60,680 bases of DNA from a virus, in the IMG/VR virus record IMGVR_UViG_3300022602_000090, positions 3,664 through 64,343 of that record. The stretch is one strand, 5' to 3'. The translations under genes and the position numbers were made by a program. Of the stretch, positions 1 to 50,279 are shown in pieces. The notes beneath the pieces are model-generated. The model was not told the origin of the DNA. It saw only the letters and a list, made by a program, of their open reading frames with translations, and searched no databases. Positions within the stretch are counted from its first letter, which is position 1; the number at the start of each line of letters is the position of its first letter.

Positions 1-447
1 GATATGTTCTGCGTTTGAATCTTTAACCCAACGACTGTATATTTTGCTGCTGCTTGCAGGACTGCACATTATACATGCATAGTTGCAAATATTATCAACA
101 TTTATATCGGCAAATAATATAATTGATTGTGATGATTTTTTATAACTTTTGAACCAATTTGACGGAACAAGTGTTTCGTTATGGTTTTGGCGCATACTTT
201 TTATGTTGGATGATTCTTTATTCCAACAGTCGCTGCACTCAGCAAGTTTAATGCCATTATCTAAACTATCAGTGATATAATTATAATAATTACTGCTTAA
301 CCAGTTGTTTACACCAATTATATGTTTAACGCCATTAAACTTGCTGTTGTCAGGTTCAAAAACGCAACAAGGATAAATTTGTTGCGTTGGATTTTGATTA
401 AAAATTCCTACATGAGAAATGATACAATGAGTATCATTATTACTCAT
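1..447 (-). CDS. Twitch-domain radical SAM protein, 3' part cut off by window edge
   Basis: The minus strand is open from an ATG at 447 to the window edge, giving 149 residues of the N-terminal part. Visible are Cys8, a CC pair at 27-28, CxxC at 71-74 followed by W-N-K-E, and the radical-SAM cluster motif C-N-Y-A-C-I-M-C at 121-128 (CX3CX2C). The early cysteines resemble the N-terminal twitch (half-SPASM) module of phage 'twitch domain-containing radical SAM' proteins; the second motif binds the 4Fe-4S cluster that cleaves S-adenosylmethionine. The start overlaps the last 8 bases of the gp55 gene, so the two are probably translated together. It is the sixth member of the family in this window; the other five lie at 43.8-50.3 kb. 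Substrate unknown. The GGEP region lies beyond the edge. Confidence 0.85.
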   Translation of the reverse strand, partial: MSNNDTHCIISHVGIFNQNPTQQIYPCCVFEPDNSKFNGVKHIIGVNNWLSSNYYNYITDSLDNGIKLAECSDCWNKESSNIKSMRQNHNETLVPSNWFKSYKKSSQSIILFADINVDNICNYACIMCSPASSSKIYSRWVKDSNAEHI

Positions 448-1276
448 TGAATCCAAAGTCTCCACCTGAACCACCGCTTTTGATAGCATTATTAGTTTGG
501 CGAGTATAACTTGGATTTAATCCGTTTGCTTCGAGGATATCGTCGCGAAGGTTTTGGTTGCGCTTCTCAACGTTAAGAACTCTAGTAAAACTATTGGTGA
601 TAGTAGCAGTGTAATAAGCAAAAGGATTATTAGATTTGCTTTCGTCAAATTGTAGCCCTACCTGTGATAACTGTAACAATGCCTGAGAGCGCATCTCATC
701 ATTGTATGTATAACCACGCCAGTTACCCTTTGAACCATAGCGTTCACATAGTTTAATAAACATGCGAGCCAACATAGGAGTCATCTTGCCATGATCTTTG
801 TTAAACCAACCATTCTCAATGCCGCCTTCCCAATGCGACTTGGCACAGCAAATTAGTTTATCTTCTTCATTGAAACGATAATGTTGAAATGGTGGGAAAT
901 TTACCTTAACATGGTGATCAGCCGTTGTTTTAAGACTTTTCTTTCTGCCTGGCGCAAGTGGAATATGATCCCATGCAATAATGCGAAAGACTACATCAGT
1001 TTTTTTAATAGTGTGCCAATCAACCGCATGAACATCTTGTTTGGTTTTTACGCCTGTTGCGGTCATAGCTTCCCATGCTTGTTTTGCCATCCTATCGGCA
1101 CGAGCACGTTTAGCCTCTGCAATTGTCTTTTGATTGATCTTGCTTAAAGATGGCAAGATTAAATCATACACTTGATCTTCTGGTGTTAAGAATGAACAGA
1201 ATGTATTTTTGCTCTTAGCAATCTCTTTTAATAGGTCTTTGTTTGTTAGATAAGGGGTGCGTTTTGTTGTTGTCAT
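440..1276 (-). CDS. 55: Late-transcription sigma factor gp55
   Basis: This 278-residue protein resembles the T4 late sigma factor gp55, which replaces host sigma70 on RNA polymerase and recognises TATAAATA-type late promoters. The N-terminus has the Y-L-T-N-K-D-L-L element matching Y-V-N-N-K-E-L-L in T4 gp55. The sigma-2-like core lies at about 165-250, with G-Y-T-Y-N-D-E-M and N-P-F-A-Y-Y-T, equivalent to the T4 region ending N-P-H-A-Y-I-T. About 120 residues separate these parts, making it longer than T4 gp55 (about 185); from memory, cyanophage gp55 has the same extra segment, with K-T-T-A-D and V-K-V-N-F-P-P-F-Q. It is transcribed away from the structural block and overlaps the following radical-SAM start by 8 bases. 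Its targets are probably the TAAATA sites listed elsewhere in this window. Confidence 0.92.
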   Translation of the reverse strand: MTTTKRTPYLTNKDLLKEIAKSKNTFCSFLTPEDQVYDLILPSLSKINQKTIAEAKRARADRMAKQAWEAMTATGVKTKQDVHAVDWHTIKKTDVVFRIIAWDHIPLAPGRKKSLKTTADHHVKVNFPPFQHYRFNEEDKLICCAKSHWEGGIENGWFNKDHGKMTPMLARMFIKLCERYGSKGNWRGYTYNDEMRSQALLQLSQVGLQFDESKSNNPFAYYTATITNSFTRVLNVEKRNQNLRDDILEANGLNPSYTRQTNNAIKSGGSGGDFGFNE

Positions 1277-1283
1277 GGTTACT

Positions 1284-1289
1284 ATTATA
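1284..1289 (-). promoter_or_regulatory. Candidate -10 box for gp55
   Basis: Minus-strand TATAAT ends 7 bases before the gp55 ATG at 1276. No convincing -35 box sits 16-18 bases upstream. The short distance would give an almost leaderless mRNA, as at 40079 and 42660. The region is very AT-rich, so chance is possible. Confidence 0.35.
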
Positions 1290-1307
1290 TATGGTTATTT
1301 TAATAAA

Positions 1308-1315
1308 ATAAATAT
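1308..1315 (+). promoter_or_regulatory. Candidate late promoter (ATAAATAT)
   Basis: An ATAAATAT site lies 15 bases before the ATG at 1331, with a purine-rich GAGAG (1322-1326) as ribosome-binding site. It matches the T4 late consensus TATAAATA at 7 of 8 positions on its best register and sits at the head of the rightward baseplate block, divergent from gp55. Confidence 0.55.
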
Positions 1316-1330
1316 TTAATTGAGAGTACA

Positions 1331-2386
1331 ATGGCATTATTTAATATTAACCCAACGCAGTATTATAGCAGAACACCAACTACCAATCAGGTGGCATCTA
1401 CTTCATCTTTGAGTAGAAACCAACTGATTAATACTGGATATGGTAACCCTACCAATATTGCCGCATATGCTGGTTACAATGGCAATCAAAGTGCTTATAC
1501 ATTGCCTGGCACCGCTGGATATAAGTTACCTGCACAAAATTATTACAACTATGGTGTAAACAATCCATCTAGTTTTGGAACACAAACTTTAAAAACAAGT
1601 TTGGTCAACACTGCTGTTAATAGTGCGCTGCAAGGATTAGTATATGGGTTAACTGGTGGACCATCTACCGATCCTACAAATGGAAGATTAAGTGGAACTG
1701 GTGTAGCACAAGGAGCAACAAGTCAAGATTTGCTTCAAGCACAAAATAGTGGCAGCAATACGGCTTTCCAAGATGATACCGAAGATCGTGTTATAATCAG
1801 TGATCAAACAGGTCGTTTTATTGGAGCAAGTTCTATATTTTCACCGCTCAATGATACTGGCGGCGTTCTATTTCCGTATACTCCTGTTATTCAGGTTGCT
1901 CATAAAGCTAGCTATGATATGATGAACCTTGTTCATACAAATTATACAACGCCAGCATATCAACATAGTTCTGTTGATAGTATATCAATTCAAGCATTGT
2001 TTACGGCAAATTATCCAGCAGAAGCTGAATATGTAGTTGCAATGTTACATTTTTTTAGAACAGTTACTAAAATGTTTTATGGACAAGATCAATTGGCTGG
2101 CACTCCTCCGCCAGTTTTATTCTTGGATGGTTATGGTCCATATACATTTGATCATATTCCTATTGTCATTACTTCTTTTGATTATTCATTACCCAATGAT
2201 GTTGATTATATTAGCTGTACAATTGATGGCGATAAACAAAAGGTGCCAACCACATTAAATGTTAATATCAGTGCTATACCAACATACAGCCGCAACAAGA
2301 TTAGTAATCAATTTGGATTGGTTAACTTCTCACAGGGTTCATTGCTTACAGGTGGCGGTGGTTCAGGACCAGGAGGTTGGATTTAA
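1331..2386 (+). CDS. Tail/baseplate structural protein
   Basis: This 351-residue protein starts the rightward structural operon, directly before gp53. The first 130 residues are rich in Asn, Ser, Thr and Gly. The folded part, about 150-330, includes F-P-Y-T-P, H-F-F-R-T-V-T-K-M-F-Y-G, P-P-P-V-L-F-L-D-G-Y-G and S-L-P-N-D-V-D-Y-I. I recall the same pattern in virion proteins of cyanophage and pelagiphage T4 relatives. Position and layout suggest a component at the tail-tube/baseplate junction, as T4 gp48 or gp54 are, but direct similarity to those proteins is not clear to me, so no symbol is given. The C-terminus is Gly-rich. Its stop overlaps the gp53 start (TAATG). Confidence 0.7.
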   Translation: MALFNINPTQYYSRTPTTNQVASTSSLSRNQLINTGYGNPTNIAAYAGYNGNQSAYTLPGTAGYKLPAQNYYNYGVNNPSSFGTQTLKTSLVNTAVNSALQGLVYGLTGGPSTDPTNGRLSGTGVAQGATSQDLLQAQNSGSNTAFQDDTEDRVIISDQTGRFIGASSIFSPLNDTGGVLFPYTPVIQVAHKASYDMMNLVHTNYTTPAYQHSSVDSISIQALFTANYPAEAEYVVAMLHFFRTVTKMFYGQDQLAGTPPPVLFLDGYGPYTFDHIPIVITSFDYSLPNDVDYISCTIDGDKQKVPTTLNVNISAIPTYSRNKISNQFGLVNFSQGSLLTGGGGSGPGGWI

Positions 2387-2703
2387 TGTCTTTTAATCCC
2401 CCAAGTTATTCAACAGCAAGTTCATATTATAGCACTCAAAGTTTTGACAATGGTCAATTCTTAGATTTGTGGAATGCTCGTGCTATCCCAAAACTAGCAT
2501 CTGATATTTTATTCACTATACCTCCACAATATGAATATCGTCCAGACTTGTTAGCATTTGACTTATATGGTAATCCAACTCTTTGGTGGGTATTTGCTGT
2601 CCGCAATCCAAATACCCTTATTGATCCGCTATGGGATTTCACTGCCGATACAACCATATATTTGCCACAAAAAAGTACTCTACAAAATTCATTAGGTACA
2701 TAA
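2386..2703 (+). CDS. 53: Baseplate wedge protein gp53-like
   Basis: The start is ATG at 2386, overlapping the previous stop as TAATG, with AGGAGG at 2371-2376 as ribosome-binding site. The 105-residue protein has the gp53 core: I-P-P-Q-Y-E-Y-R-P-D-L-L-A, then D-L-Y-G-N-P-T-L-W-W-V-F-A. In T4, gp53 joins neighbouring baseplate wedges and has a LysM-like fold; the tryptophan pair and R-P-D-L belong to this core. It is much shorter than T4 gp53 (about 196 residues) and ends soon after the core. Its place between other baseplate genes supports the call. Confidence 0.8.
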   Translation: MSFNPPSYSTASSYYSTQSFDNGQFLDLWNARAIPKLASDILFTIPPQYEYRPDLLAFDLYGNPTLWWVFAVRNPNTLIDPLWDFTADTTIYLPQKSTLQNSLGT

Positions 2704-5700
2704 ATGCCAACAAATTTGACACCGCAAGAACAATTAACTGCTGCCCAAAATCAGTTTAACAACTGGCTTAACCAACAGCAAGCAAGTGGCAATACTATTA
2801 CGCTAAGTGATATTAATTCACAAAAATCCGCAATCTTAAACAGTGGCGCTTATCCCGATATTAATGTTGGTAGACTTAATACTGGTGGGCAAAGTAGCGA
2901 AGGTTTAGTGGTTAATATATCACCAGATAGTTTCTTTATTAATGGAAATGGTGGATATACCGAAGATAATAGTAATGGATATAGTGGAACTCCATTATTA
3001 TCCAATGATGGATTGGTAGTCACTGCTGATAATGCAGAACAAGTTGCAGCGGCGCAGCAAGCAGCAGTTGCTGCCCAAGCAGCGGCATCTCAGGCTGCAA
3101 CTGCACAAAGTGCGCAACAAGCAAGTGATGCTCAATCTGCTCTTGCTGCTGCCCAAGCACGAGTAGCAGCCCTACAAGCACAAGCAAATAATACTCAGGC
3201 AAGTGATACTACTCCAACAAGCAGTCCAGATGCACAGGCTGCAAGTAGCGCAATAAGTCAACAGCAAGGGCAAGAAATAAGCAACATAACAGATGCTAAT
3301 GCTGCAAGTGATGCTTCAATATCGCAACAAAATGCTAGTGCTAGTGCTCGTCAACAAGCAGAGTTGGCTCAAACACAAGCACAAATTACAGCAACGAACA
3401 CCAATAATACTGCACAAAGCAGTGGAAGTGGAACTGCAAATAGCGAACTTAACACAGCAGCAACCAATAATGGAGCAAACCAAACTACTCCAAGTGATGC
3501 AATTCCTGTTAATCCTAACCAAACTGTTAATTCTGTGACAAATGGTACAACAGAAGATGCTGCTGGTGTCGCTGTTCAAACACAAAATAATAATACAACC
3601 TATACAGATCAACAGCCAACAGGCGGAGTGACCAACAGTCAAGGTGTTCCAGCACCATTAAGTTCTTATAACAATACTGGTAACCAACCAACAAGTAACA
3701 TTACCAGCAGTGGACCAGCATCCATTAATCAAAACTCGGCAGGCAATAATAGTTCTGGCAGCGGTGCACAATCACATCCTAGTACCAATATTCAACGTCC
3801 AAATAAACTGCACAACTATGTCAATTATACCTATCGTATTTCTATCTATGGAATACCTCGTGAAACTATTAATCAAATATATTCACAAGCAATTAGTCCT
3901 GGCAATGAACATAATCTTATGAACGGCGGTATTTTTGTTGCAAGTGATAGTGGCATGAGTGCACAAACTGCAAACAGAACATTTTTTCCAACAGATTTAA
4001 CTATTGACAATTTAGAATTACAAACAATTGTTAATAGTTCAGGCGACCAAACTCGTGCAACCGATGTTATTAAGTTAAAATTTGATATTATTGAGCCATA
4101 TACTGTAAGTTTTTTGGCTAGATTACAAAAGTTAGCAAACGCATTAAATCCAGGCGATACTAATTTTAGTTGGTCAAACAGTTTTTTTGTTATGAAAATT
4201 GAATTTATGGGTTATAATGACAATGGTCAACCAATTGCTCCAAGCATTGGTTCTAATGGCAGTGGCGAAGTTATACCAGGAACTACAAAATATATACCAT
4301 TTACTTTTGTAAACATGAAATTTAACATCACTTCTGGTGGCGGAACATATAGTTGTGAAGCAATACCATCTAATGGTATGGGCATAAGTTCACTTGACAA
4401 TCAAATTCCATTTCATGTTGAAATAAAAGGTGGGTCTATTGCTGATTTGTTTAATGGCAAATTGGCAAGTACAACCACTACATCTACGCTGGTGCGTCCT
4501 AACAGTGCCGACCAAGAATTACAAACAACAACTACACAAAATACGGTAAGCGGCAATCAAACAACTGTCACCAAAGGAGTTGCTGATGCACTAAACGCAG
4601 GCGAAACAGAAAAAGCAAGCCAAGTTGGTGCAGATGGCAAAAAAGTTGGTCAATGGTTGCCAAATACATATGAATTTGAATTTCATAATGAGTTGTTAAA
4701 TGCCAAAGTTATTGATCCTCAAACATTTAAAGATCAAAGTGTGGCAATCAGTGGCGCATCAGATGCAAATAATAAAAAACAAGGTCAAACTGGTTCATTA
4801 ACTATCACTACTAATAGTCAAGCATTTCGTGCCACTGCTGGAACTCGCATAACTGATTTTATCGGTAGTGTCATTACTGTTAGTGATTATATGACTGGTC
4901 AGAATACTACTAGTGGACAAGATAACCAACCAGTAAAAACATGGAAAATTACTCCTGTTATTAAATTTGGTCCTATTGATCGTGGAACAGGTTATTATCA
5001 GCGCACTACCAAATATGTAATAATGCCATATACAATGTATGGACACGATGCACCAGGATTTGGACAAGCACCAGTTTCTCCTAATCAGATTGTAAAAACA
5101 TATACCTATTTGTATAGCGGTCAAAACAAAGATGTTATTGAAGCCAACATTAATTATAATATGGCTTTCTTTGAATTTCGTAATGGTGTTCCAACCAATT
5201 ATATTAATAAAGCTAATGATGAAAGCGGCAATGAGAAACAACAAAGTTATACCAGTGGTGGATATGATGCTTATGGCGATGGTCGCTTCTTTAAACCTCG
5301 TTATCATTATGTTCGTGGATTGGCAGAACGCCAAAATACTGGTCCTACCACAGTTAGCGCACAAACAATTGCCGTTCAAGAATTGATGGAAAAATTGCTT
5401 GACAATCGTGGTGATATGATAACTTTAGATTTTACAATCGTAGGCGATCCAGACTGGATTAGTCAAGATTATGCGTTAATGCATCCATCAGTTGTTGGCA
5501 CATCACCTTATATTGGCAGTAATGGCAGTATAAATTATACTAATCCAGTTTATTTTAATTTTTATTTTGCCACTCCTAATACTGATTATGATGATACTAG
5601 TGGGTTGTTTAATGTTAGCGGTGCATATAGTGAGTTTAGTGGAATCTATCGCACCATTCAGGTTACGAGCACATTTAGTGGCGGTAAATTTACACAGAAA

Positions 5701-5955
5701 TTAAAAAATTATCGTGTGCGCAATCAGCAACCACCAGCAACGACTGCTGCCAGAAGTGATAGTGTACCATCACAGTCTGTAAACGCTGCAACACGAGGCG
5801 CAACAGAAAACCCAGTGGCAGAAGCAGCGACAAACACAGTTGGCGCGGTAACCTCTCCTACTTCTTCTCAACCTTCTACTAGTAATAATACTAGCACATC
5901 CAGCGAAGATGCTGGCAATGAACTAGCGCCATACACATATGCAACAGGATCGTAA
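2704..5955 (+). CDS. Large baseplate/tail structural protein with Ala-Gln-rich N-terminus
   Basis: This 1083-residue protein begins directly after the gp53 stop. Residues 105-165 are Ala/Gln-rich with heptad-like spacing, probably a coiled coil. Residues 165-360 are low-complexity Ser/Asn/Thr/Gln. A folded region from about 367 to 1005 begins with Y-V-N-Y-T-Y-R-I-S-I-Y-G and contains I-I-E-P-Y-T-V-S-F-L-A-R-L and Y-S-C-E-A-I-P. The tail after 1005 is again low complexity. I recall the middle part from large virion proteins of T4-like marine phages and jumbo phages, but cannot match it to a single T4 gene. Sitting between gp53 and gp5, it is probably part of the baseplate hub or the hub-wedge connection. 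Confidence 0.65.
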   Translation: MPTNLTPQEQLTAAQNQFNNWLNQQQASGNTITLSDINSQKSAILNSGAYPDINVGRLNTGGQSSEGLVVNISPDSFFINGNGGYTEDNSNGYSGTPLLSNDGLVVTADNAEQVAAAQQAAVAAQAAASQAATAQSAQQASDAQSALAAAQARVAALQAQANNTQASDTTPTSSPDAQAASSAISQQQGQEISNITDANAASDASISQQNASASARQQAELAQTQAQITATNTNNTAQSSGSGTANSELNTAATNNGANQTTPSDAIPVNPNQTVNSVTNGTTEDAAGVAVQTQNNNTTYTDQQPTGGVTNSQGVPAPLSSYNNTGNQPTSNITSSGPASINQNSAGNNSSGSGAQSHPSTNIQRPNKLHNYVNYTYRISIYGIPRETINQIYSQAISPGNEHNLMNGGIFVASDSGMSAQTANRTFFPTDLTIDNLELQTIVNSSGDQTRATDVIKLKFDIIEPYTVSFLARLQKLANALNPGDTNFSWSNSFFVMKIEFMGYNDNGQPIAPSIGSNGSGEVIPGTTKYIPFTFVNMKFNITSGGGTYSCEAIPSNGMGISSLDNQIPFHVEIKGGSIADLFNGKLASTTTTSTLVRPNSADQELQTTTTQNTVSGNQTTVTKGVADALNAGETEKASQVGADGKKVGQWLPNTYEFEFHNELLNAKVIDPQTFKDQSVAISGASDANNKKQGQTGSLTITTNSQAFRATAGTRITDFIGSVITVSDYMTGQNTTSGQDNQPVKTWKITPVIKFGPIDRGTGYYQRTTKYVIMPYTMYGHDAPGFGQAPVSPNQIVKTYTYLYSGQNKDVIEANINYNMAFFEFRNGVPTNYINKANDESGNEKQQSYTSGGYDAYGDGRFFKPRYHYVRGLAERQNTGPTTVSAQTIAVQELMEKLLDNRGDMITLDFTIVGDPDWISQDYALMHPSVVGTSPYIGSNGSINYTNPVYFNFYFATPNTDYDDTSGLFNVSGAYSEFSGIYRTIQVTSTFSGGKFTQKLKNYRVRNQQPPATTAARSDSVPSQSVNAATRGATENPVAEAATNTVGAVTSPTSSQPSTSNNTSTSSEDAGNELAPYTYATGS

Positions 5956-5958
5956 TAA

Positions 5959-8900
5959 ATGACTGACATTTTTGACCAAGAGTTTAGAAAGGCTCCTCAC
6001 CATACAAAGCATGAAAGTGCAAGTGGTGTTCGCATATCGCCTGGTCCTTATGTAGGTATTGTAAAAAATAATACTGACCCACTGCGTAGTGGTAAACTTC
6101 AAGTTTGGATTCCTGAATTAGGTGGCAGTCCCACTGACGAAGGAAGTTGGAAAACAGTTAGTTACTCAACTCCATTTTATGGCGTAACCAATCATCGTGA
6201 TACTAGCGGATATGCAGGACATCCTCATTCTTATGGCATGTGGTTTGTTCCTCCTGATATTGGTATTAAAGTTCTTTGTACATTTGCTAACGGAAATCCA
6301 TTTGATGGATATTGGTTTGCATGCGTTCCTGAATGGCCAAATATGTATAACTTACCTGGTATGGCAGCATCATTGGATGGAAGTATTCCATCCCCTGTTA
6401 CCAACGGACCAACTGATACATTAACTCCTGCAATTTTAAGTAATATTGGTCCGTTAAAAGATCAAAGCGGTAATAATTTGCGAATAGCACATGATTATCA
6501 GAAAGCTACTTGGGATGCTCAGCATTTAACCAATGATCCAGATCGTGGACCTGGCACAAGCAGTGCATTTCGTGAAACTCCAAGCAGTGTATTTGGTATT
6601 TCAACGCCTGGACAACCAATTGATTCAAGTGATCCACAATTAAAACCAAATGTAAACGGCGACCAAGAATGGGGCGTTCGTGGCCGCAAAGGTGGACATA
6701 CTTTTGTTATGGATGATGGCGATTCCAATGGCAAAAACCAAATGTTTAGGTTGCGCAGTTCAAAAGGTCATATGATCCTAATGAACGATACCAAAGATTT
6801 TATCTATGTTATCAACAGCAAAGGAACTGCTTGGGTTGAAATTAATGCTGCTGGCGATATTAACATGTATTCACAAAGCAATGTGAATATCAAAGCAAAA
6901 GGCGGTATGCAGCTTGAAACTGATGGCGCACTTAAATTGCATGGTAAAACCGTAGATATTGTCAGTGATGGCGCATTTAACATGCAAGGCACTGATATTA
7001 ACATACTTGGCAGTGGCAAAACAAAAGTTACTGGCAAATCTGCTCTTCATTTAAAAGGTAAAAATACCTATCTAACTGGCGATAGTTGTATTCAAATTAA
7101 GGCAGATGGACATATTGATCTTAAAGCTGCTTGTCATACAATTAATACTGCTGATGCAACCAAAGCAGAAGAGGCAGGCGCAGGACAAAAACCAAGTAAT
7201 ATGCCAACCAATGAACCGTGGACAGGACATAATAGTCCAACTGCTCCAACAAGTCAACCTGGCTTTGGACAAAAGCAAGGATTACCTGGCGCAGCAACCG
7301 CTGGTCCATTTAGTGCTGCTAATAATTTTGGTAGCAACAATGTTCAACAAAATTATGGTCCAATGACCAATAACATTTCGCCAACGACCTATACAAACAG
7401 TGCAACTAATTTTGCTGGTCAAGGCAGCACTGCTGGTGATTATATTTCAAGTACCGATAGTAGCGGAACAAGTTATATTGTGGCTGGTGCAATTGCAGGT
7501 GCGGTTGCTGGTATCGTTTTCGGCAGCGGTGCAAGTTTTGATGTATCTAGCATATCACCTGAAAACAACAGTGATCCAAACTTTACCACTGGTGAATTGC
7601 AGAATAATCCTGGCAATCTTCCATATAGTAGCAGTGATCAATTTGCAGTTGGATATGCAAACAGTATTGCAGTATATACTAAGCCAGAAAATGGTATTGC
7701 ATCATTGGCAGTATTGTTTGATAGCTTTAATACAAGCACAACAACAATGTGTATTGATTTGATTACTGCTTTCTTAAACGCACAAACAAATCAAGACCCT
7801 AATGTTATTAACATGACTCGTTATATGAATACTAACTTAGGCATTAATGCAACAGATTATGTTGCATTAAGCGACCCTACAACTCGTCTTGGATGGGTTG
7901 CTACTGTAATTAAATATGTTCAAAACGGTCTCATCTATACCTATGACCAATTAGTTAGTGGATGCGCATTAAGTTTAAATATTAGCAAAACAACATTCTT
8001 GAATGGATTGCAGCCTGTTACACAACCTTGGCAAAACAACGGTGGAACTAATCCATATAGCGGATTTGTTAATCCAGCAACTACTCCAAATGTTCAAAAT
8101 AATGGAAACAGTCCACTAACACAGATTGCAAATGGCATCGTTAATAATATTGTAAGTGGTGCAGCGTTTAGTGTTGGCAATTCAATTGGCAGTTCTGTCG
8201 GAAATTACTTAACTGGTTCTTCAAATTCACCATCTAATGTAGTAAGTAGCGCAGTAAATTCTGCTACATCAAATCTTGGATTAGCTACTGGTCAATCAGC
8301 ATATACATCCTATCTTGGACAAAGCGTAGGAAGTGGACAATGCGTTGCATTGGTACAAGCAGCAAGTGGTGCCGGTACTACATCAACATGGGTACCTGGC
8401 ACTAGCGTAACCAGTGGCACTTTACAACCAGGAACGGTTATTGCTACATTTGGTAGTAATGGAACATATCAAAATATATCAGGACAAAGCCACGCAGCTA
8501 TTTTCTTAGGTTATCAATATGATCAAAATGGAAATGTTACTGGTATCCAAGTTCAAGACCAATGGTCTGGTCAACCTTGCGGCACTCGTGTTATTCCATA
8601 TGGTACAGGAACTCCAGAAAGTGGTGAAAACTTTGTTGCGGTCACGCATGATGGCAACACACCTATTCAGGCTGCTGGTTCTCCGCAGCCTATTACGCAG
8701 GATCAAGTTAATAACTTAGATGGAAATGTTCCACTTCCTCCTACTAATCCTGATTCAGTCAGTGGAAATAGCCCAACAAGTGCTAACAATGTTGACAATT
8801 ATGATAACAGCGGTTATCGTGATATGAAAGCTACTACAAGTCAAACTTATGGTGGATACAGTGGCATACCAAGCACAACAGTTGTAAATTCTAATGGTTC

Positions 8901-39392: not shown

Positions 39393-39968
39393 TTATTTTA
39401 TTTTTTTAATCCGTAGTTTGGCAGCAGCAGATAATTTTGCACGATGTTCTAAAGTAAATTTTTTTCCATAATTTGGATTTTTTTCTCCTCTTTCAGCATT
39501 GCCAATTTTAGCACGGTGTTCTTCTGATAATTTTCTGCCTATCTTTGCCGCTCGCATTTTAGCACGAGTTTCTTCTGAAACTATTCTTCCATAACTAGGA
39601 CTATCTTTTCCTACTTTTCCATACATATGGTTTTTTTCACCTGTTATGGCAAGTCGTTGTTCTGTTGAATACTTGTATCCGCAAGTTCCCTCTCCACCAT
39701 CGCTTCGATTAATTAATATACCAGTATTGTTGTCTTTACGACCATACCAAGTAATCATACGGCGTTCTATTGCTAATGCACCGATTTCAGTTAGATTATG
39801 TTCAAGTATGATAATTTTAGATTGATCTTTTGGAATAGATGTTCCTTTGTGTTTTGCCCATGCACGACCATCTTTCCCCTTGCCAATATAATATGGAGTT
39901 GAATCTGATGCTCTTATATAAGCATATACATAATATCCGCTTGGCGGATTAGTGCTGGTAAATACCAT
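39393..39968 (-). CDS. GIY-YIG homing endonuclease with NUMOD3 repeats (copy A)
   Basis: The 191-residue product has the GIY-YIG nuclease core at its N-terminus (G-Y-Y-V-Y-A-Y, Y-Y-I-G-K-G, R-A-W with the catalytic Arg, and the Glu in A-I-E-R-R-M). C-terminal NUMOD3-type DNA-binding repeats follow ([24 protein letters not shown]). I chose ATG 39968, with AAGGA 10 bases upstream, over an ATG at 40010 that lies inside the leader hairpin. Such enzymes cut phage DNA to spread their own gene. Copy B is at 42071. Both have the same late promoter and leader. Confidence 0.87.
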
Positions 39969-39994
39969 TGCGCTGTGTTCCTTCATAACATAGA

Positions 39995-40022
39995 GTAGGT
40001 GGGGCGGCAACCCGTGACCTAC
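39995..40022 (-). promoter_or_regulatory. Conserved 5' leader hairpin, copy A
   Basis: On the minus strand GTAGGT pairs with ACCTAC. Inside are a CAC internal loop, a GGG:CCC stem and the six-base loop TTGCCG. Copy B at 42018 has the same 28-base layout with compensating changes in both stems. It starts about 6 bases after the late-promoter core, so it should lie at or near the 5' end of the endonuclease mRNA. Confidence 0.7.
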
Positions 40023-42893: not shown

Positions 42894-43824
42894 GTTAGTT
42901 GATATTAGTGAATTAGATTGTATCTTTTTAAGTTACAAAGAACCAAATGCAGATGCAAACTTTGCATATTTGCGTTCATTTGCGCCATGGGCAAAGCGAG
43001 TTGATGGCATAGAAGGTTCGGATGCCGCACACAAAGCAGCGGCTGCTGCCAGTGAAACAGAACGCTTTATTCTTATAGATGCCGACAATCAACCTAACCC
43101 AGAGTTCTTTAATCAGCAACTTCGTATGAACCATCTTAATGACCAATGTGTATTTCGTTGGCGAGCCAGAAATATTATTAATGGATTATGTTATGGCAAT
43201 GGTGGCATTTCAAGTTGGACTAAAACTTTTGTAAACAATATGCGAACTCATGAAGCAACTGATGGTAGCAATGATACTGCTGTTGAATTTTGCTTTGATA
43301 ATAATTATTGGGCAATGCATGATGTATGGAGCACAACGCTGCCTAATTCTTCGCCACAACAAGCATGGCAAGCAGGATTTCGTGAAGGTGTAAAACTATG
43401 CCTTGATCGTGGTCGTCGCCCTACACCAGAAGAATTTGAAAGTGCTACTTGGCATGGTAATCGTGCTAACCTTGTTATTTGGGCAACAGTTGGTGCGGAT
43501 GTTGAGTTTGGCAAATGGGCAATAATGGGTGCTAGACAAGGTGCGCATATGACTATGTTTGTTGATGATTGGGATTATCGTGAAGTTCGTGATTTTAAAA
43601 AACTTGATAATTTGTGGCAATATACAATGGATGATGGTTTACAAAGAAGCGAACAGTATGCAAATATATTGCGTAAACGTTTAAATCTTGATATTATAAG
43701 CATGTCGCCTGAGCAAAGTTCTTGGTATAAGAAACATCAACGAGCATACCAGAACATTGATATCATGCTGCTAGAGAGGGATGTTCATAGTGTCATCAGA
43801 AACGCTGCTAGACAACAGTGGTGA
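42886..43824 (+). CDS. GT-A-like glycosyltransferase
   Basis: The chosen start is GTG at 42886, with AAGGA seven bases upstream; an ATG at 42868 has no visible ribosome-binding site. The 312-residue product has D-C-I-F-L-S-Y-K-E-P-N-A-D-A-N, H-K-A-A-A-A-A-S-E-T-E-R-F and I-D-A-D-N (65-68), a D-x-D-type metal motif. W-Q-A-G-F-R-E-G-V-K-L and G-K-W-A-I-M-G-A-R-Q-G follow. The C-terminal part of the 51378 protein is a paralogue (D-I-I-F-I-S-Y-D-E-P-E-A-D-A-N). Substrate unknown; the gene precedes the five radical-SAM genes and overlaps the first. Confidence 0.65.
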   Translation: MSELVDISELDCIFLSYKEPNADANFAYLRSFAPWAKRVDGIEGSDAAHKAAAAASETERFILIDADNQPNPEFFNQQLRMNHLNDQCVFRWRARNIINGLCYGNGGISSWTKTFVNNMRTHEATDGSNDTAVEFCFDNNYWAMHDVWSTTLPNSSPQQAWQAGFREGVKLCLDRGRRPTPEEFESATWHGNRANLVIWATVGADVEFGKWAIMGARQGAHMTMFVDDWDYREVRDFKKLDNLWQYTMDDGLQRSEQYANILRKRLNLDIISMSPEQSSWYKKHQRAYQNIDIMLLERDVHSVIRNAARQQW

Positions 43825-45229
43825 TAAAGCAGTCGCTGATAGTGAAGGAAATCTTCACAGTGACTTTATGTCTAGTGCTGAACAAATGCAAAAGAAACTT
43901 GGTTCTGCTTTGTGTCTTGCAAAGTGGCAACAGACTAGTTTGCACCTAACAACTGGTCATACCAACAGTTGTTATCATCCACCGCTGCATAGGATTGATG
44001 CTAATGAACTTGAAAATAACCCCAGTGCGCTCCATAACACCGCTCATAAAAAGACCCAGAGAGCAAGAATGCTTAGTGGAGAGAAGCCAGAAGAATGTTC
44101 ATATTGCTGGCGAGTTGAAGCCACGGGAAACTTATCCGACCGACATTACAGATCAGGGGAACCTTGGGCTTCTGAGAAGTTTAGCGAGATTTTGGTTCAA
44201 GACCCTTTAACGTGGAATCCAAACCCAAGTTATGTTGAAGTAAACTTTAACAGTGCCTGTAATTTAAGTTGCTCTTATTGCTCTCCGCAATTCAGCAGCA
44301 GTTGGATGAAGGAAATCAATGAATACGGTGCTTATCCTACCTCTAATAGTCATAATAGTCCTTCTTATTTTGGGGGTGATCGTAAACCTATACCGAATCG
44401 GGAAGATAATCCTTATGTTGATGCGTTCTGGCGATGGTGGCCCGAACTCTACCCTAACTTAAAACATTTTCGCATGACAGGCGGCGAACCATTAATGGAT
44501 CGTAATACCTATCGTGTGTTTGACTATGTATTAGAGAATCCTAAGAAAGATTTACATCTTAATGTGACCTCTAATTTTAGCCAAGATGAATATGTGTTTG
44601 ACAAATATCTAACTTATGTTAAACATATGTGTGGTAACCATGTGCTAGAACATTTCATGCAGTTCGTTTCTATCGACGGATACGGAGAACGTGCTGAATA
44701 TGCTCGACATGGTCTTGATTTCAAACTTATGCAGCGAAATGTTGAGCGTTTCTTGGAAGAAGTTCCAAGCCGCAATAGTGTGACATTCATTATTACGATG
44801 AATGTGCTCAACGTCACAAGTTTGCAAGAACTCATGGAATGGATACTCCAACTTCGTGCCAAGTATAGCAAGACCTATCAGCGCATTTGGTTTGATACTC
44901 CTATCTTGCGTGAACCTCAATGGCAATGTATTGATATTTTACCCCAAAGTTATGCTTGGTTCTTACAGAATATTGTCCATTGGATGAAACCACAAGCAGA
45001 AACAGTTGCAACACGATTCAATGGGTTCAAGGACTATGAAATTGCTAAACTTCAACGTGTAGTAGATTGGATGCATGAACATCACCGTGAAGATACAACT
45101 GCAATGGCAGATTTTTATCGTTTCTTTAATGAACATGATGCTCGTCGTGAAACAAATTTCTGTGAAACATTTCCAGAAATGATTGAATGGTATAATAAAT
45201 GTAAATGGTGGGCAGATAATGCGAAGTAA
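43790..45229 (+). CDS. Twitch-domain radical SAM protein 1
   Basis: I chose GTG at 43790, 9 bases after GAGAGGG; the ATG at 43781 touches that site directly and is less likely. The 479-residue product has an N-terminal Cys module (C-Y-H-P-P-L-H, N-P-S-A-L-H-N-T, C-S-Y-C-W-R-V-E), the cluster motif C-N-L-S-C-S-Y-C (157-164), and M-T-G-G-E-P-L near 230, which contacts SAM. The N-terminal layout differs from that of genes 3-5 and is shared with gene 2. It probably generates a 5'-deoxyadenosyl radical to modify a substrate, perhaps a peptide; the substrate is unknown. It overlaps the genes on both sides. Confidence 0.88.
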   Translation: MSSETLLDNSGDKAVADSEGNLHSDFMSSAEQMQKKLGSALCLAKWQQTSLHLTTGHTNSCYHPPLHRIDANELENNPSALHNTAHKKTQRARMLSGEKPEECSYCWRVEATGNLSDRHYRSGEPWASEKFSEILVQDPLTWNPNPSYVEVNFNSACNLSCSYCSPQFSSSWMKEINEYGAYPTSNSHNSPSYFGGDRKPIPNREDNPYVDAFWRWWPELYPNLKHFRMTGGEPLMDRNTYRVFDYVLENPKKDLHLNVTSNFSQDEYVFDKYLTYVKHMCGNHVLEHFMQFVSIDGYGERAEYARHGLDFKLMQRNVERFLEEVPSRNSVTFIITMNVLNVTSLQELMEWILQLRAKYSKTYQRIWFDTPILREPQWQCIDILPQSYAWFLQNIVHWMKPQAETVATRFNGFKDYEIAKLQRVVDWMHEHHREDTTAMADFYRFFNEHDARRETNFCETFPEMIEWYNKCKWWADNAK

Positions 45230-46574
45230 ACGACCAGAAGAATCTTTTCTAGAATATAAACAGCGTGTGTTAGATACCAAGAGCGCATCATTTTGTGGTG
45301 CCAAATGGTATAATGCTACTATCTGGTTAGGCAGTGGGCAAACCACTAGTTGCCATCATCCACTTCCACATCAGGTTAGTGTTGAACAGGTGTTAGCTAA
45401 CCCTTCTGCATTGCATAATACGCCGCAAAAAAAAGAACAACGTGCACAGATGCAGCGAGGAGAAAGACCCACTGGTTGTGAATATTGTTGGCGCATTGAA
45501 GATAGTAGTGCCACTGCAATCAGTGATAGACCATATAAAAGTATGATATTCAGTGAAGAAGAATTAAGCGATGCATTTAACCTTCCACCTGACAGAGATG
45601 TAAACCTTAGAACTTTGGAGATAGCCTTTGACCGCACTTGTAATTTTGCCTGCTCTTATTGTAATCCTGCATTTAGCACGACCTGGGTCCGAGATATTAA
45701 GACGAATGGCGGTTATAGCGGGCTTCATAGCGATGGGCGTAATCATTATACACATAGCCATGACGCTAGTCAAATTTACGGATATACCGATACTAATCCA
45801 TATGTAGAAGCTTTCTTTAAATGGTGGGAAACCGATCTACATAAGACGTTGAGAGAACTGCGCATTACGGGTGGAGAACCTCTAATGAGTGGTCACACTT
45901 GGAAATTACTTGAATGGTTTAAAGAAAATCGTGGTAAGAGTAATACCAAGCTTGCCATTAATTCTAATCTTGGAATGGATGATAAACAAATTGATAAGTT
46001 TATTGATGCTGTTAAAGGATTAGAAGTTGAAGTTTATACAAGTTGCGAAGCCTATGGCGAAGACGCAGAATATATTCGTGATGGATTAAATTATAAACAA
46101 TGGTTTGGTAATTTAGTAAAATTAATAAAAAGTGGTGCTGTTAAACAATTGCATGTTATGGCAACTATCAATGGATTGTCGTTGCTATCTCTTCCAAAAT
46201 TTTTAGAACATATGATGGACTTTAAGATGGGATGGGGCAGAGATTCACTAACATTTACCCTAAACATCTTGCGCTTTCCAAGTTTTCAAAGCCCAACAGT
46301 TATGCCATTTGGTATTCGCGAAGAATGTGCAGTTGAATTAGAAAAATTCTTAACAAAATTTGAAGATAGCAAATATCTTCATCAAATGGAAATTGAACAT
46401 ATTAAACGATTGATTGAATATCTGCGCAATGTTAAGACTCCACATGATGGCGCAAGTAGTATAGATATATTAGAAAAAGATTTTAAAACATTCTATGAAC
46501 AATATGACCAACGCCGTAATAAAAAATTTATAGATACATTTTGGCTATTAGAGGATTGGTATAATGGCATATAA
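45219..46574 (+). CDS. Twitch-domain radical SAM protein 2
   Basis: The ATG at 45219 overlaps the previous stop by 11 bases; an upstream in-frame ATG at 45183 lies deep in gene 1. The 451-residue product has C-H-H-P-L-P-H, N-P-S-A-L-H-N-T, C-E-Y-C-W-R-I-E, C-N-F-A-C-S-Y-C (141-148) and I-T-G-G-E-P-L. The N-terminal wording is very close to gene 1, suggesting a recent duplication. Its C-terminus has R-R-N-K-K-F-I-D-T-F-W, a family-like ending also seen in gene 1 (R-R-E-T-N-F-C-E-T-F). Confidence 0.88.
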   Translation: MRSKRPEESFLEYKQRVLDTKSASFCGAKWYNATIWLGSGQTTSCHHPLPHQVSVEQVLANPSALHNTPQKKEQRAQMQRGERPTGCEYCWRIEDSSATAISDRPYKSMIFSEEELSDAFNLPPDRDVNLRTLEIAFDRTCNFACSYCNPAFSTTWVRDIKTNGGYSGLHSDGRNHYTHSHDASQIYGYTDTNPYVEAFFKWWETDLHKTLRELRITGGEPLMSGHTWKLLEWFKENRGKSNTKLAINSNLGMDDKQIDKFIDAVKGLEVEVYTSCEAYGEDAEYIRDGLNYKQWFGNLVKLIKSGAVKQLHVMATINGLSLLSLPKFLEHMMDFKMGWGRDSLTFTLNILRFPSFQSPTVMPFGIREECAVELEKFLTKFEDSKYLHQMEIEHIKRLIEYLRNVKTPHDGASSIDILEKDFKTFYEQYDQRRNKKFIDTFWLLEDWYNGI

Positions 46575-47835
46575 TTATAATGGCAAAGAACCATTAAAGA
46601 TATCAGTAGATAAGTTAAGTAATGCTCATAAAGATTTGATATTTGAAAACAAATCATTTTGCATGTATCCATGGATTCATCTTCATGCTTTTCCAACAGG
46701 CGAAGCATATCCTTGCTGTAACACAGAGATGAGTGAACTTGTTGGCAATACTAGGCAACAAACTATCCAAGAAATTTGGGATGGTGAACCTATGCAAAGT
46801 GTTCGTGCCAAGATGCTTGCGGGCGAGGCGGTAAAGGGCTGCACAAGATGTTATGAGCAAGAAGATAGTGGTTTTTTTAGTATGCGCATGAGTGCTAACA
46901 AACACTTTGGGCATCATATTGCGTTAACTGATAATCCTAATCCACAAATGAAAATGATTTATTGGGATATTCGTTTCTCTAATCTTTGTAACCTGCGTTG
47001 CCGCAGTTGTGGTCATATTTTTAGTTCAAACTGGTATGATGACCAAGCGAAACTTGCTGGTGCAGATTGGGAGAATCACAATACCAGAATCAATTTTGCT
47101 GGTAAAACAGAAGATGATATTTGGGAACAATTAGAACCACAGATTGATAACCTTGAACAAGTTTACTTTGCTGGTGGTGAACCACTTATCATGGAAGAAC
47201 ATTATCGTCTACTTAATGAATTGATTAAGCGTGGGCGAACTGATGTGCGTCTTATATACAATACTAATTTCAGTCAACTAACCTATAAGAAAACAAATGT
47301 GTTAGAATTATGGCGTGAATTTGATAGTGTAAGCGTTGGCGCAAGTCTTGATGCGATGGGAACACATGCCGAGTATATTCGTAAGAATACCAATTGGGCG
47401 CAAGTAGAACGCAATCGTGAAGAGATGTTATGGACATGTCCACGAGTTGACTTTTATATAAGTCCTACTCTAAGCATTATGAATGCATTGCATCTTCCTG
47501 ATTTTCACAAAGATTGGGTTTCCAAAGGTTTCTTAAAACCACAGGATTTGAACATTAATATTCTTCAAGACCCAATGCATTATCGCATTGATGCGCTACC
47601 GTTTCAATATAAAGTTGATGTTCAAGAATTGTATCTAGAACATATTGAATGGTTAAAACCACAAGATAAATTAAATCGTGCTACTACTGGATTTGAAAGT
47701 GCTATTAAATTTATGATGAGCGATGACAAGTCACATCTATTACCGCAATTTAAATCGAAGACTGCACAGTTAGATACTATCCGCAATGAAAATATATTAG
47801 ATGCAATACCAGAATTAGGATATTTGTATGAGTGA
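46564..47835 (+). CDS. Twitch-domain radical SAM protein 3
   Basis: The 423-residue product has the standard twitch N-terminus: F-C-M-Y-P-W-I-H-L, A-Y-P-C-C-N, I-W-D-G-E, and C-T-R-C-Y-E-Q-E. The radical-SAM motif is C-N-L-R-C-R-S-C (142-149), then F-A-G-G-E-P-L-I. It starts 11 bases before the end of gene 2 and ends 8 bases after the start of gene 4. It looks like the most typical member of the cluster. Substrate unknown. Confidence 0.9.
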   Translation: MAYNYNGKEPLKISVDKLSNAHKDLIFENKSFCMYPWIHLHAFPTGEAYPCCNTEMSELVGNTRQQTIQEIWDGEPMQSVRAKMLAGEAVKGCTRCYEQEDSGFFSMRMSANKHFGHHIALTDNPNPQMKMIYWDIRFSNLCNLRCRSCGHIFSSNWYDDQAKLAGADWENHNTRINFAGKTEDDIWEQLEPQIDNLEQVYFAGGEPLIMEEHYRLLNELIKRGRTDVRLIYNTNFSQLTYKKTNVLELWREFDSVSVGASLDAMGTHAEYIRKNTNWAQVERNREEMLWTCPRVDFYISPTLSIMNALHLPDFHKDWVSKGFLKPQDLNINILQDPMHYRIDALPFQYKVDVQELYLEHIEWLKPQDKLNRATTGFESAIKFMMSDDKSHLLPQFKSKTAQLDTIRNENILDAIPELGYLYE

Positions 47836-48994
47836 CACATTTTGTGTATTGCCATTTGTAAGCATTGAAGCAGACCCTATGGGTAAATGCAAGGTATGTT
47901 GTTTAAGTTATGATACAATACCTGATATTGATCTAAAAACAAATACGCTTACGGAAGCATTTAATAGTTCTTATATGACCAACCTTCGCCAAAATTTTCT
48001 CAATGGTGAGAAGCCAGAGGGTTGCAATCGTTGTTGGAATGAAGAGGCAAGTGGTAGAACAAGTAAGCGTATGCATAGTAAGATGCGATTGCGTAAAATA
48101 ATTGGCAATAGTAAATTCATCAGTTCTGATGATGGCAAATTGATGTTTATTGATTTGAAACTGGGCAACATTTGTAATTTAAAATGTCGTATATGTGGAA
48201 GTTTTAGTAGTTCGAAATGGGCACAAGAAGAAATTGATATCTATTCTGAAAATCAAACTGCAAGAGACAATCTTGTAAATGGAAGATGGCCACGAGAATC
48301 AAAAAAATTCTGGGAAGATTTAACAAGTCTGCTCGAAAATACAAAGTATTTTGAGTTTACGGGTGGCGAACCATTTTTAATTGATGAGCATTTTGATTTA
48401 CTCGCTATCGCAGTTGAATTAGGATATGCAAGCGATATTGAAATTCATTATAATACCAATACAACTACTTTTCCAAAACGTGGGTTGGAACTTTGGCCGC
48501 ATTTTAAGTTAGTTGAAATTGCACTATCAATAGATGACATTGGTCCACGTTTTGAGTATCAAAGATATGGCGCAAGTTGGAATAAAGCGGTAGAAAATTT
48601 AGAAAAGTTTAGAGAATTGCGCAGAACACATAAAAATATAAAATTACAATTATGTTTGACTGCAAATATTCAAAATTTTTATTATATTGATGAAATGTGT
48701 AGATGGATTCCAAAACAAAAATTTGATTATGTGTATTTTAATGTTCTACATGATGTTTGGTATTTTAGTATCTCACGACTAAATCAAACAGCTAAGCAGC
48801 TAATATATCAAAAACATAAAGATTATAACGGTCCATACTATAAAGAGGTGGAAAATTTATTGCAGTTCATGATGCAAGGAGAAGACAGCGATTGCACTGA
48901 ACTTGTAGAACAATTAAAGAATAGCGATACACAGCGCAACCAAAAATTCAGTGATCATCACAGCGAGATAGCGGCGGCAATTGGATATGAATGA
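47828..48994 (+). CDS. Twitch-domain radical SAM protein 4
   Basis: The 388-residue product starts F-C-V-L-P-F-V-S-I-E, has V-C-C-L-S, C-N-R-C-W-N-E-E, C-N-L-K-C-R-I-C (116-123) and F-T-G-G-E-P-F. It is the shortest complete member. A partial likeness of C-W-N-E-E to C-W-N-K-E in the left-edge fragment suggests those two may be closer relatives. Confidence 0.88.
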   Translation: MSDTFCVLPFVSIEADPMGKCKVCCLSYDTIPDIDLKTNTLTEAFNSSYMTNLRQNFLNGEKPEGCNRCWNEEASGRTSKRMHSKMRLRKIIGNSKFISSDDGKLMFIDLKLGNICNLKCRICGSFSSSKWAQEEIDIYSENQTARDNLVNGRWPRESKKFWEDLTSLLENTKYFEFTGGEPFLIDEHFDLLAIAVELGYASDIEIHYNTNTTTFPKRGLELWPHFKLVEIALSIDDIGPRFEYQRYGASWNKAVENLEKFRELRRTHKNIKLQLCLTANIQNFYYIDEMCRWIPKQKFDYVYFNVLHDVWYFSISRLNQTAKQLIYQKHKDYNGPYYKEVENLLQFMMQGEDSDCTELVEQLKNSDTQRNQKFSDHHSEIAAAIGYE

Positions 48995-50279
48995 TTTTTG
49001 TTTAGCACCGTGGACGCACACATTTATTTCTCCTGTCGGTGAAAGACGCCTATGCTGCGCCTCTCGTGAACCTGCGCAGAACTTCAAGCAGTATATCGAC
49101 ACGGCTGGTGGCGATGGTGAGTTTACTCCGCTTACATTAAAGGATTGGTGGAATGGCGAACATATTAGAGAAATTAGAAAGCAATGGTTGGCTGGTGAAG
49201 TTCCGTCTGCATGTGAAGTCTGTGACAAGAAGTTACTTAATACCAATGTCTATCGTGATTACTTCGGTCATCTCTTTGGTCATCTTAGATCAGATATACA
49301 GGCTAATACGGATAGTGATGGATTCACCACCCTAGAACCGATATCATGGGATTATCGTTATAACAATGTATGTAACTTCAAGTGTCGTATGTGTGGCGAT
49401 ATGCTAAGTTCAGCATGGGAAGTTGAAGTTCGCAAGAATGAAATGGTTGATTTAACTAATCCCAAGAACCATTGGATGCAACCAAAGAATCGCCATGCTA
49501 TTCGCAATTTTACTCGTGATGTAGTCATACCTGAATTTCGTGAGGCAATTGAAAATAAATCTGTCCGTGAAATTTATTGGGTAGGTGGCGAGCCATTATT
49601 ATATGACGAGCACTGGACATTCATGCGTCGAATAATAGAACTTGACTATGCTGATCAGGTTCGTGTAAGATATAATACAAATCTAAGTTATTGTCAGGAT
49701 AAAGAAGGAACCCTATGGGAACTTCTTGAAAAATTCCCACATTGGGAAATATGCGCAAGTTTAGATGGAACAGGAGCGATTGGCGAATATGTTAGGACTG
49801 GCCTTAATTATAGCGATTGGTATGATAGCTTTCGACGGGGGATTGAATCTTCGAAAAACCCTAGACAAATGCGTATTGATTTTACTCTTACTTTACCTGG
49901 TCTTTTCGACCTTGCGAGCATTATCAATTTATCCGATGAACTGAATGTAGAACTGTTGAGTAAAGTTGTATTTGCCTTCTCTCCTGACATACTACTCAGT
50001 CCATTGGCGCTGCCTAGAACGGTCTTAGAACCGCTTTTAGAGGGCATACAGGAGCGTATTAAGCCACTCATCACTCGTCGCACACGCAGTTTATGGGACA
50101 CGTTAGAACACCTTAAAACTCGTCCTACATTTGAAGAACAGTTCCCCCAAACCTATAAGCAAGAAGCAATTAAAGGTAAAGCACATCTTTTAAAATTGGA
50201 ATCTATCCGCAAAGATGCTAAAATAAAGATGGAAGATATCTTAACTGGTGATGTCTTAGATTGGTGGAATAGTATATGA
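48987..50279 (+). CDS. Twitch-domain radical SAM protein 5
   Basis: Start is ATG at 48987, overlapping the previous stop by 8 bases; a TTG two codons upstream is less likely. The 430-residue product has F-C-L-A-P-W-T-H-T-F, L-C-C-A-S-R-E, W-W-N-G-E, C-E-V-C-D-K-K, C-N-F-K-C-R-M-C (129-136) and W-V-G-G-E-P-L. It ends the five-gene run. The next gene starts at the stop (ATGA), so an unrecognised protein is translationally coupled to it. Confidence 0.9.
   Translation: MNDFCLAPWTHTFISPVGERRLCCASREPAQNFKQYIDTAGGDGEFTPLTLKDWWNGEHIREIRKQWLAGEVPSACEVCDKKLLNTNVYRDYFGHLFGHLRSDIQANTDSDGFTTLEPISWDYRYNNVCNFKCRMCGDMLSSAWEVEVRKNEMVDLTNPKNHWMQPKNRHAIRNFTRDVVIPEFREAIENKSVREIYWVGGEPLLYDEHWTFMRRIIELDYADQVRVRYNTNLSYCQDKEGTLWELLEKFPHWEICASLDGTGAIGEYVRTGLNYSDWYDSFRRGIESSKNPRQMRIDFTLTLPGLFDLASIINLSDELNVELLSKVVFAFSPDILLSPLALPRTVLEPLLEGIQERIKPLITRRTRSLWDTLEHLKTRPTFEEQFPQTYKQEAIKGKAHLLKLESIRKDAKIKMEDILTGDVLDWWNSI

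Follow-up and report, generated by a model that had tools for sequence, protein, structure and literature searches.

A radical-SAM gene overlapping gp55

The window analyzed here is a stretch of 60,680 nucleotides covering bases 3664-64343 of a virus record (IMGVR_UViG_3300022602_000090) whose length is 64,343 bases. At its left edge, the minus strand carries a gene for a gp55-type late sigma factor (440..1276, 278 aa) that matches phrog_12791, the sigma factor for late transcription (E 3.6e-80), and phrog_234 (E 1.4e-22). It is followed, on the same strand, by the N-terminal 149 codons of a radical-SAM gene, rSAM6 (1..447), which match positions 2-142 of the 398 of the N-terminal-twitch family NF033640 (N_Twi_rSAM, E 2.6e-24). 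The rSAM6 frame is open from 447 to 1 and begins ATG AGT AAT; gp55 (1276-440) ends AAT GAG TAA. The two genes share the 8 bases ATGAGTAA (440..447, minus strand), which hold the start codon of rSAM6 and the stop codon of gp55, exactly as in the original prediction, made from the letters alone, of a sixth radical-SAM gene starting inside the last 8 bases of gp55. Another in-frame ATG upstream, at 489, is a second candidate start of rSAM6.

The gene had been described as truncated. Its frame does stop at the window edge, but the cause is technical: rSAM6 looks cut because the window begins directly after ten consecutive N (record 3654-3663), and the missing half continues on the record. Extending the contig leftward, as had been proposed, gave beyond the gap, all on the minus strand, the second half of rSAM6 (record 3653-3000; NF033640 positions 174-364, E 9e-32), then a gp47-like nuclease subunit (phrog_100 match), and then a gp46-like subunit (phrog_77 match) that runs off the record end. 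A frame break just beyond the edge had been named as evidence against the gene. Reading the frame literally across the ten N does give such a break: ten cannot be divided by three, and the frame meets stops at once. A ten-N run is usually a placeholder for a gap of undefined size, so the literal break is evidence neither for an intact rSAM6 nor for a broken one.

Two observations favour the two halves being one gene. They match consecutive parts of a single family, and the distance from CxxxCxxC (here CNYACIMC) to GGEP, which lies in the left half, is 43 residues plus the gap, compared with 43-69 residues in 15 other proteins measured. The record might instead be chimeric at the gap, the two radical-SAM halves coming from different genes or phages. 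The literal break would fit this, as would the identity to L145, a relative in which nothing separates gp55 and gp47 but a short spacer, which falls from 99% (gp46) to 91% (gp47) and 81% (gp55 side). However, the step from 99 to 91% lies left of the gap, and each half is joined to its neighbour (gp55 or gp47) in gap-free sequence. Together with the collinear family matches and the motif spacing expected of a single gene, this makes a chimera quite improbable.

A perfect 9-bp hairpin encloses the stop/start overlap (425..449, minus strand). It is terminator-like in a scan that gave, this hairpin included, 5 such sites in 3.3 kb when 1.7 were expected. Compared with shuffled sequences, the fold has a z of -3.22 over 36 nt selected around the hairpin and of -1.76 in a 71-nt stretch; the choice of the hairpin was post hoc, and over the longer stretch the advantage against the shuffles is modest. 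The gp55 junctions of four relatives with filled slots (L007, L009, L100, L101) gave z values from 0.42 to -1.51. The hairpin may serve in coupling or act as a weak terminator. Weak promoter-like sites, matching at 9 of 12 positions, occur at the junction (TGGAGA-17-AATAAT, near the rSAM6 start) and inside gp55, 21 on both strands vs 14 expected, and may provide rSAM6 with a promoter of its own.

Kinship of the six radical-SAM genes

All six radical-SAM genes of the phage match NF033640. The other five form an array on the plus strand: rSAM1 (43781..45229, 339.8 bits), rSAM2 (45183..46574, 301.9 bits), rSAM3 (46564..47835, 402.3 bits), rSAM4 (47828..48994, 335.9 bits), and rSAM5 (48981..50279, 272.1 bits). 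The likeness to this NCBIfam family (twitch domain-containing radical SAM protein) lies in the N-terminal cysteines, CxxxCxxC, and GGEP. The five array genes score above its cut-off, whereas the halves of rSAM6, a diverged gene split by the gap, reach 86.1 and 110.6 bits, each below the cut-off of 170. Five N-terminal cysteines of rSAM6 (C8, C27, C28, C71, C74) are invariant with four kin. Its C-terminal half has two cysteines and gave no match to a SPASM domain at E 0.1. Elsewhere in the window, the gene cluster before the array has homing-endonuclease-like frames (phrog_314) at 39393-40010 (minus strand) and 42071-42628 (plus strand), and a single open frame of 5106 aa spans 13563-28883.

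The array (43781-50279) is collinear with arrays in the genomes G005, G013, and G014, and the best identities of its genes outside the record are 81-94%. In G005, a SPASM-like radical-SAM gene (L368 2219-3286) lies between the counterparts of rSAM1 and rSAM2, which adjoin in the window. Relatives of rSAM4 were found in 50 loci: 12 have identities of 72-85%, a single one has 61%, and the remaining 37 have 39-50%. The picture for rSAM6 is different. In local alignments it is 22-24% identical to rSAM1-5 (23% to rSAM4), phage and contig scans gave no relative above 36% over its N half, and the best identity over most of its length is 27-29%. The N half had no match in phages at E 0.01. It found 12 loci in the contig scan, with best segments of 32-34% (36% to L087 in an alignment), and 55 viral loci at 24-34% in an alignment search, which gave no match among genome contigs. 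The C half matched 19 Vibrio phage records at 19-20% and was not found in viral contigs. Since the contig scans were seeded by short exact peptide patterns, medium relatives can escape them.

These data bear on the proposal that rSAM6 and rSAM4, the fourth gene of the array and some 48 kb away, are products of duplication and dispersal, which had been drawn from the likeness of C-W-N-K-E in the former to C-W-N-E-E in the latter. Both motifs do occur, but CWxxE is widespread among family members (CWFKE, CWIKE, and CWEKE in L087, L090, and L096; CWRVE and CWRIE in rSAM1 and rSAM2) and thus marks no special tie between the two genes. We built trees with the five other copies from hand-picked rows, 35 taken from a set of 89 and 38 taken from those 89 plus later loci; the 89 rows comprise the six genes of the window and the 83 frames left after 293 candidates had been thinned at 80% identity. 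In the trees, rSAM4 lies in a well-supported clade with counterparts from other phages. Constraining rSAM6 to group with rSAM4 and its nearest kin was rejected in both (p 2.8e-7 with 35 rows, 1.4e-5 with 38), and constraining it to the rSAM4 family gave p 0.005 and 0.019. A very deep union of rSAM6, the rSAM4 family, and L392 was not rejected (p 0.13, 38-row tree).

The position of rSAM6 itself, a long branch, varies with sampling. The 35-row tree groups it with L087/L090/L096/L098 (support 99/96); with the wider sampling of the 38-row tree this group is not kept, and forcing it is not rejected (p 0.37). Neither is a single lineage of rSAM6 and the N-twitch gene next to gp55 in L401, a distant phage (p 0.30). 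Orthology of rSAM6 to solitary N-twitch genes in G005 and G014 is neither shown nor excluded (p 0.11). Such short solitary genes lie outside the five-gene array near the DNA polymerase in G005 (97310-98407; L365 1811-2908) and beside a frame with an SGGIDS motif in G014 (L366 2158-3276).

Identities and constrained trees together reject a recent duplication from rSAM4. One may still consider that rSAM6 is a copy of rSAM4, or of another of the five, duplicated and moved 48 kb within the phage lineage, given the shared family, the two CWN motifs, and the deep union that the 38-row tree tolerates. With rSAM4 kin at 72-85% in 12 of 50 loci, rSAM6 at just 23% to rSAM4, and the grouping with rSAM4 and its nearest kin rejected, we find this highly improbable. 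Given the low identities and the rejected grouping, rSAM6 thus appears to be a family member that is either old or has changed fast, and not a recent copy of the other five. All six, being one family, may have a very old common origin.

The gp55/gp47 slot and its promoter-like sequences

A sample drawn by gp55 similarity comprised at least 80 loci, some of them near-duplicates, with both gp55 and gp47 found in 77. Among the matches listed, more than 200 bases separate the two genes in four of the 77 (L007, L009, L014, L023), and the cargo is a radical-SAM gene in two of the four (L007 and L009). In L014 the slot gene shows kinship to the putative amidinotransferase from phage CP220 (E 3e-7), and that of L023 is GNAT-like by eye. 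The gp55 tail pattern (GDFGFN) matched 107 stretches, 11 of which hold gp55; here the slot has a radical-SAM gene in 4/11 and is empty in 7/11. A gp55 search of genome contigs gave 6 loci. Loci obtained with radical-SAM queries are used as examples only, not as frequencies.

The slot genes of L007 and L009 (the two tested) have an N-terminal radical-SAM motif and a SPASM-like C terminus just under the Pfam cut-off, with relatives in L100, L101, and L102. Identities are 67-81% among L009, L100, and L101 and about 45% to L007; against rSAM6, the best match has E 2e-5, with 25% identity over 128 residues. These genes overlap gp55 by 4 bases (L009, L100, L101), 1 base (L007), or 14 bases by the listed frame start (L102). 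In other words, an overlap of gp55 with a radical-SAM gene, which had been proposed as a feature to look for in other phages, is found in some of them, but with a different subfamily. L401 has two N-twitch genes in this region, one 8 nt behind gp55 and one placed between gp47 and gp46; a search with the slot protein of L401 matched its own contig only. Slot genes are AT-rich, with a G+C content of 25-27% in L007, L009, L100, and L101 and 30-32% in rSAM6, compared with 35-37% in the surroundings.

Radical-SAM genes also use the position directly before gp46, in three contigs (L401 7578-8729, L173 131-1108, L177 1-681). Directly behind gp46, SPASM-like genes are found in many loci of the sample drawn by radical-SAM queries and, among the matches listed, in 4/57 of the gp55 sample; they overlap gp46 by 4 bases in L009 (12953-13825), L008 (8994-9884), L145 (5992-6864), and others.

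L145 is an empty allele. Its similarity to the record ends at 2996 and resumes at 4146, leaving record 2997-4145 without a match. Identity is 99.2% in gp46, 91.3% in gp47, and 81.4% in gp55 and upstream. Between L006 (record 1-6000) and L145, identity drops stepwise from 99% through 91% to 81% on approaching and crossing the slot, a pattern resembling an edge displaced by recombination. All nine empty alleles examined have a spacer of 37-38 nt with TTGACA, in the arrangement TTGACA-17-TAnnnT; three of the nine (L129, L226, L267) share one spacer sequence. From these alleles, the gap between gp55 and gp47 looks like a docking slot for swappable passenger genes.

The slot enzyme might, alternatively, be tied to gp55 by function, its target being gp55, the RNA polymerase, or a partner in late transcription. 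In favour of this, gp55 is overlapped in this clade by radical-SAM genes of two unlike subfamilies, and the N-twitch gene 8 nt behind gp55 in L401 would fit as well. Yet the slot is empty in seven of the 11 contigs found by the gp55 tail and elsewhere holds other genes, amidinotransferase-like (L014) or GNAT-like (L023), which makes such a tie unlikely. We give equally little credence to a broader version, in which the spacer would be a dedicated docking site where unlike radical-SAM enzymes interchange since they are needed when gp55 is made, possibly modifying gp55, the RNA polymerase, or a part of the replisome and so setting the early-to-late switch.

On the minus strand, a sigma70-like -10 box, TATAAT (1284..1289), lies 7 nt before the gp55 ATG, with a poor -35; in 10/10 relatives the first base of TATAAT is 12-13 nt upstream of the gp55 start as listed. 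The T4 late promoter is given as TATAAATA, with a variable first base (PMC1524935). The window has a late-type ATAAATA at 1308..1314 on the plus strand, facing the structural gene at 1331 and away from gp55, in the same orientation in 10/10 relatives. The motif was absent from the gp55 strand in the 200 nt before gp55 in 10 relatives and from the minus strand of record 1-6000. It occurs 8 times in the window vs 36 expected, and 6 of the 8 lie 3-59 nt before a frame on the same strand.

Promoter-like sequence also precedes gp47. In 13 of 15 alleles (9 empty and 6 filled; L102, with a contig that stops short of gp47, was not included), TTGAnn-17-TAnnnT ends 6 nt before the ATG, the exceptions being L101 (7 nt) and L401 (spacer of 18). 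The best match in each allele is equalled by 1 to 147 of 500 shuffles (147 for L009); single matches thus range from strong to weak, and the argument rests on the shared register. In the rSAM6 allele, the -35 (TTGACT) lies inside the last codons of rSAM6 and the -10 (TATAGT) equals that of L145; the -35 of L007, too, falls within the end of the cargo.

Distances to start codons were recorded in the window and 198 kb of G014. Eight of 25 TTGACA-N17-TAnnnT sites have the ATG of a frame of at least 50 aa exactly 6 nt after the -10, and among 52 ATAAATA sites such an ATG comes exactly 5 nt after the motif in 9 and 19-21 nt after it in 12; a mirrored motif control gave 3 scattered matches at 39 sites. 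The distances of 6 and 5 nt would place the start site on the ATG. They are signs of leaderless messages, noted at window 40072, at the gp55 and gp47 starts, and in L434-L443.

Because ATAAATA points to the structural gene and TATAAT precedes gp55 in the window and all ten relatives, gp55 and rSAM6 are probably not late genes, and synthesis of rSAM6 probably precedes the late switch. The original prediction placed its synthesis with the late-transcription switch. Joint expression with gp55 is indeed probable, but the late-type motif faces away from gp55, and cotranscription with a sigma factor is not control by its promoters; late expression is therefore unsupported. Late expression of rSAM6 under the control of gp55 itself would agree with its adjoining and overlapping gp55, and with rSAM1-5, which lie on the structural-gene strand and may be late. 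The lack of ATAAATA at the places searched and the sigma70-like boxes at gp55 and gp47 argue against it, and we hold it to be of low probability.

Predicted expression, chemistry, and known systems

The gene order, the overlap, the motifs in both halves, the empty and differently filled alleles, the retained promoter-like sequence, and the lack of close kinship to rSAM4 are consistent with the reading that we favour, with a probability of about two in three: rSAM6 would be a cargo gene docked behind gp55 and read from the gp55 message before late transcription. An N-terminal-twitch radical-SAM gene would have docked between the gp55 stop codon and gp47's own promoter. As it is without a clear promoter of its own, it would be read from the gp55 message and so be made together with gp55, ahead of the late genes. 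Termination and restart at the ATGAGTAA overlap would supply its ribosomes, a coupling that the hairpin could tighten. gp47 and gp46 would keep their sigma70-like promoter, its -35 box now in the last codons of rSAM6, and we infer that the insertion need not be polar. Several points weigh against this reading. The literal frame through the ten N breaks; the hairpin over the overlap is terminator-like, and coupling fails if the gp55 message ends there; weak 9-of-12 promoter-like sites are present at the junction and in gp55; the gp47 promoter matches are weak singly and the gp55 -35 is poor; and, among the matches listed, just 4/77 loci of the gp55 sample have slot cargo, two of them radical SAM.

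The chemistry class, radical SAM, is secure. A model of the related protein in L087 (pLDDT 88) has a radical-SAM barrel with an N-terminal cysteine domain. Its fold matches include DesII (Z 13.7), SkfB (13.6), anSME (13.4), and BlsE (13.4), with viperin-like enzymes also among the nearest; the peptide maturases, DesII, BlsE, and the viperin-like enzymes are within one Z unit. Foldseek TM-scores by query length are 0.27-0.36 among 28 matches at E 0.001 or better. The N-terminal stretch of the family profile weakly matches a part of BtrN (E 0.002-0.003) that we take to be its auxiliary domain. Single-sequence searches of solved structures with rSAM3 and the L009 slot gene gave no match at E 0.01. 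A SAM-radical [4Fe-4S] cluster and an N-terminal auxiliary cluster might modify a side chain in some protein or peptide that is synthesized during infection. We offer this substrate tentatively and with considerable doubt, as DesII and BlsE tie with the peptide enzymes and the TM-scores are low.

Multiple radical-SAM genes in T4-like phages have already been published. The Campylobacter phages CP220 and CPt10 have 11 and 12 of them, together with putative amidinotransferases, in an interchangeable module, along with T4-like genes (PMC2853527). According to the portion of that report available to us, the module lies elsewhere (region CPT_0075-0089, with gp55 at CPT_0048); what matched these phages in our data was the gene following gp46 in L009, not rSAM6. 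A T4-like environmental genome has 12 radical-SAM genes (PMC5332604), and pelagimyophages gained such genes as cassettes (PMC7029224). These phages resemble ours in having several radical-SAM genes each; the accessible parts of both papers do not describe a gp55/gp47 slot. A literature search for radical SAM with phage gp55 or a late sigma factor found no paper on such a pairing in the material it covered. What is new here is how the slot is built and that it is filled differently between alleles; its anatomy also suggests how a phage can accommodate cargo between core genes and leave them intact. Environmental T4-like phages carry radical-SAM genes in numbers, and in the sources available to us we met none with a tested substrate. 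Among such genes, rSAM6 lies beside the late sigma factor and outside the five-gene array, is probably made earlier, and has in L145 a natural empty allele, which makes it a clean case in which to test gain or loss.

Two further systems offer a comparison. rSAM6 shares with the SPASM/twitch peptide maturases (SkfB, anSME, CteB, SuiB, ChlB) a radical-SAM barrel and an auxiliary cluster domain, but the auxiliary domain of its family is N-terminal. Like phage morons, it is an accessory gene set among core genes. Morons usually bring a promoter and a terminator of their own, whereas rSAM6 lacks a clear promoter and appears to be carried along on the gp55 message.
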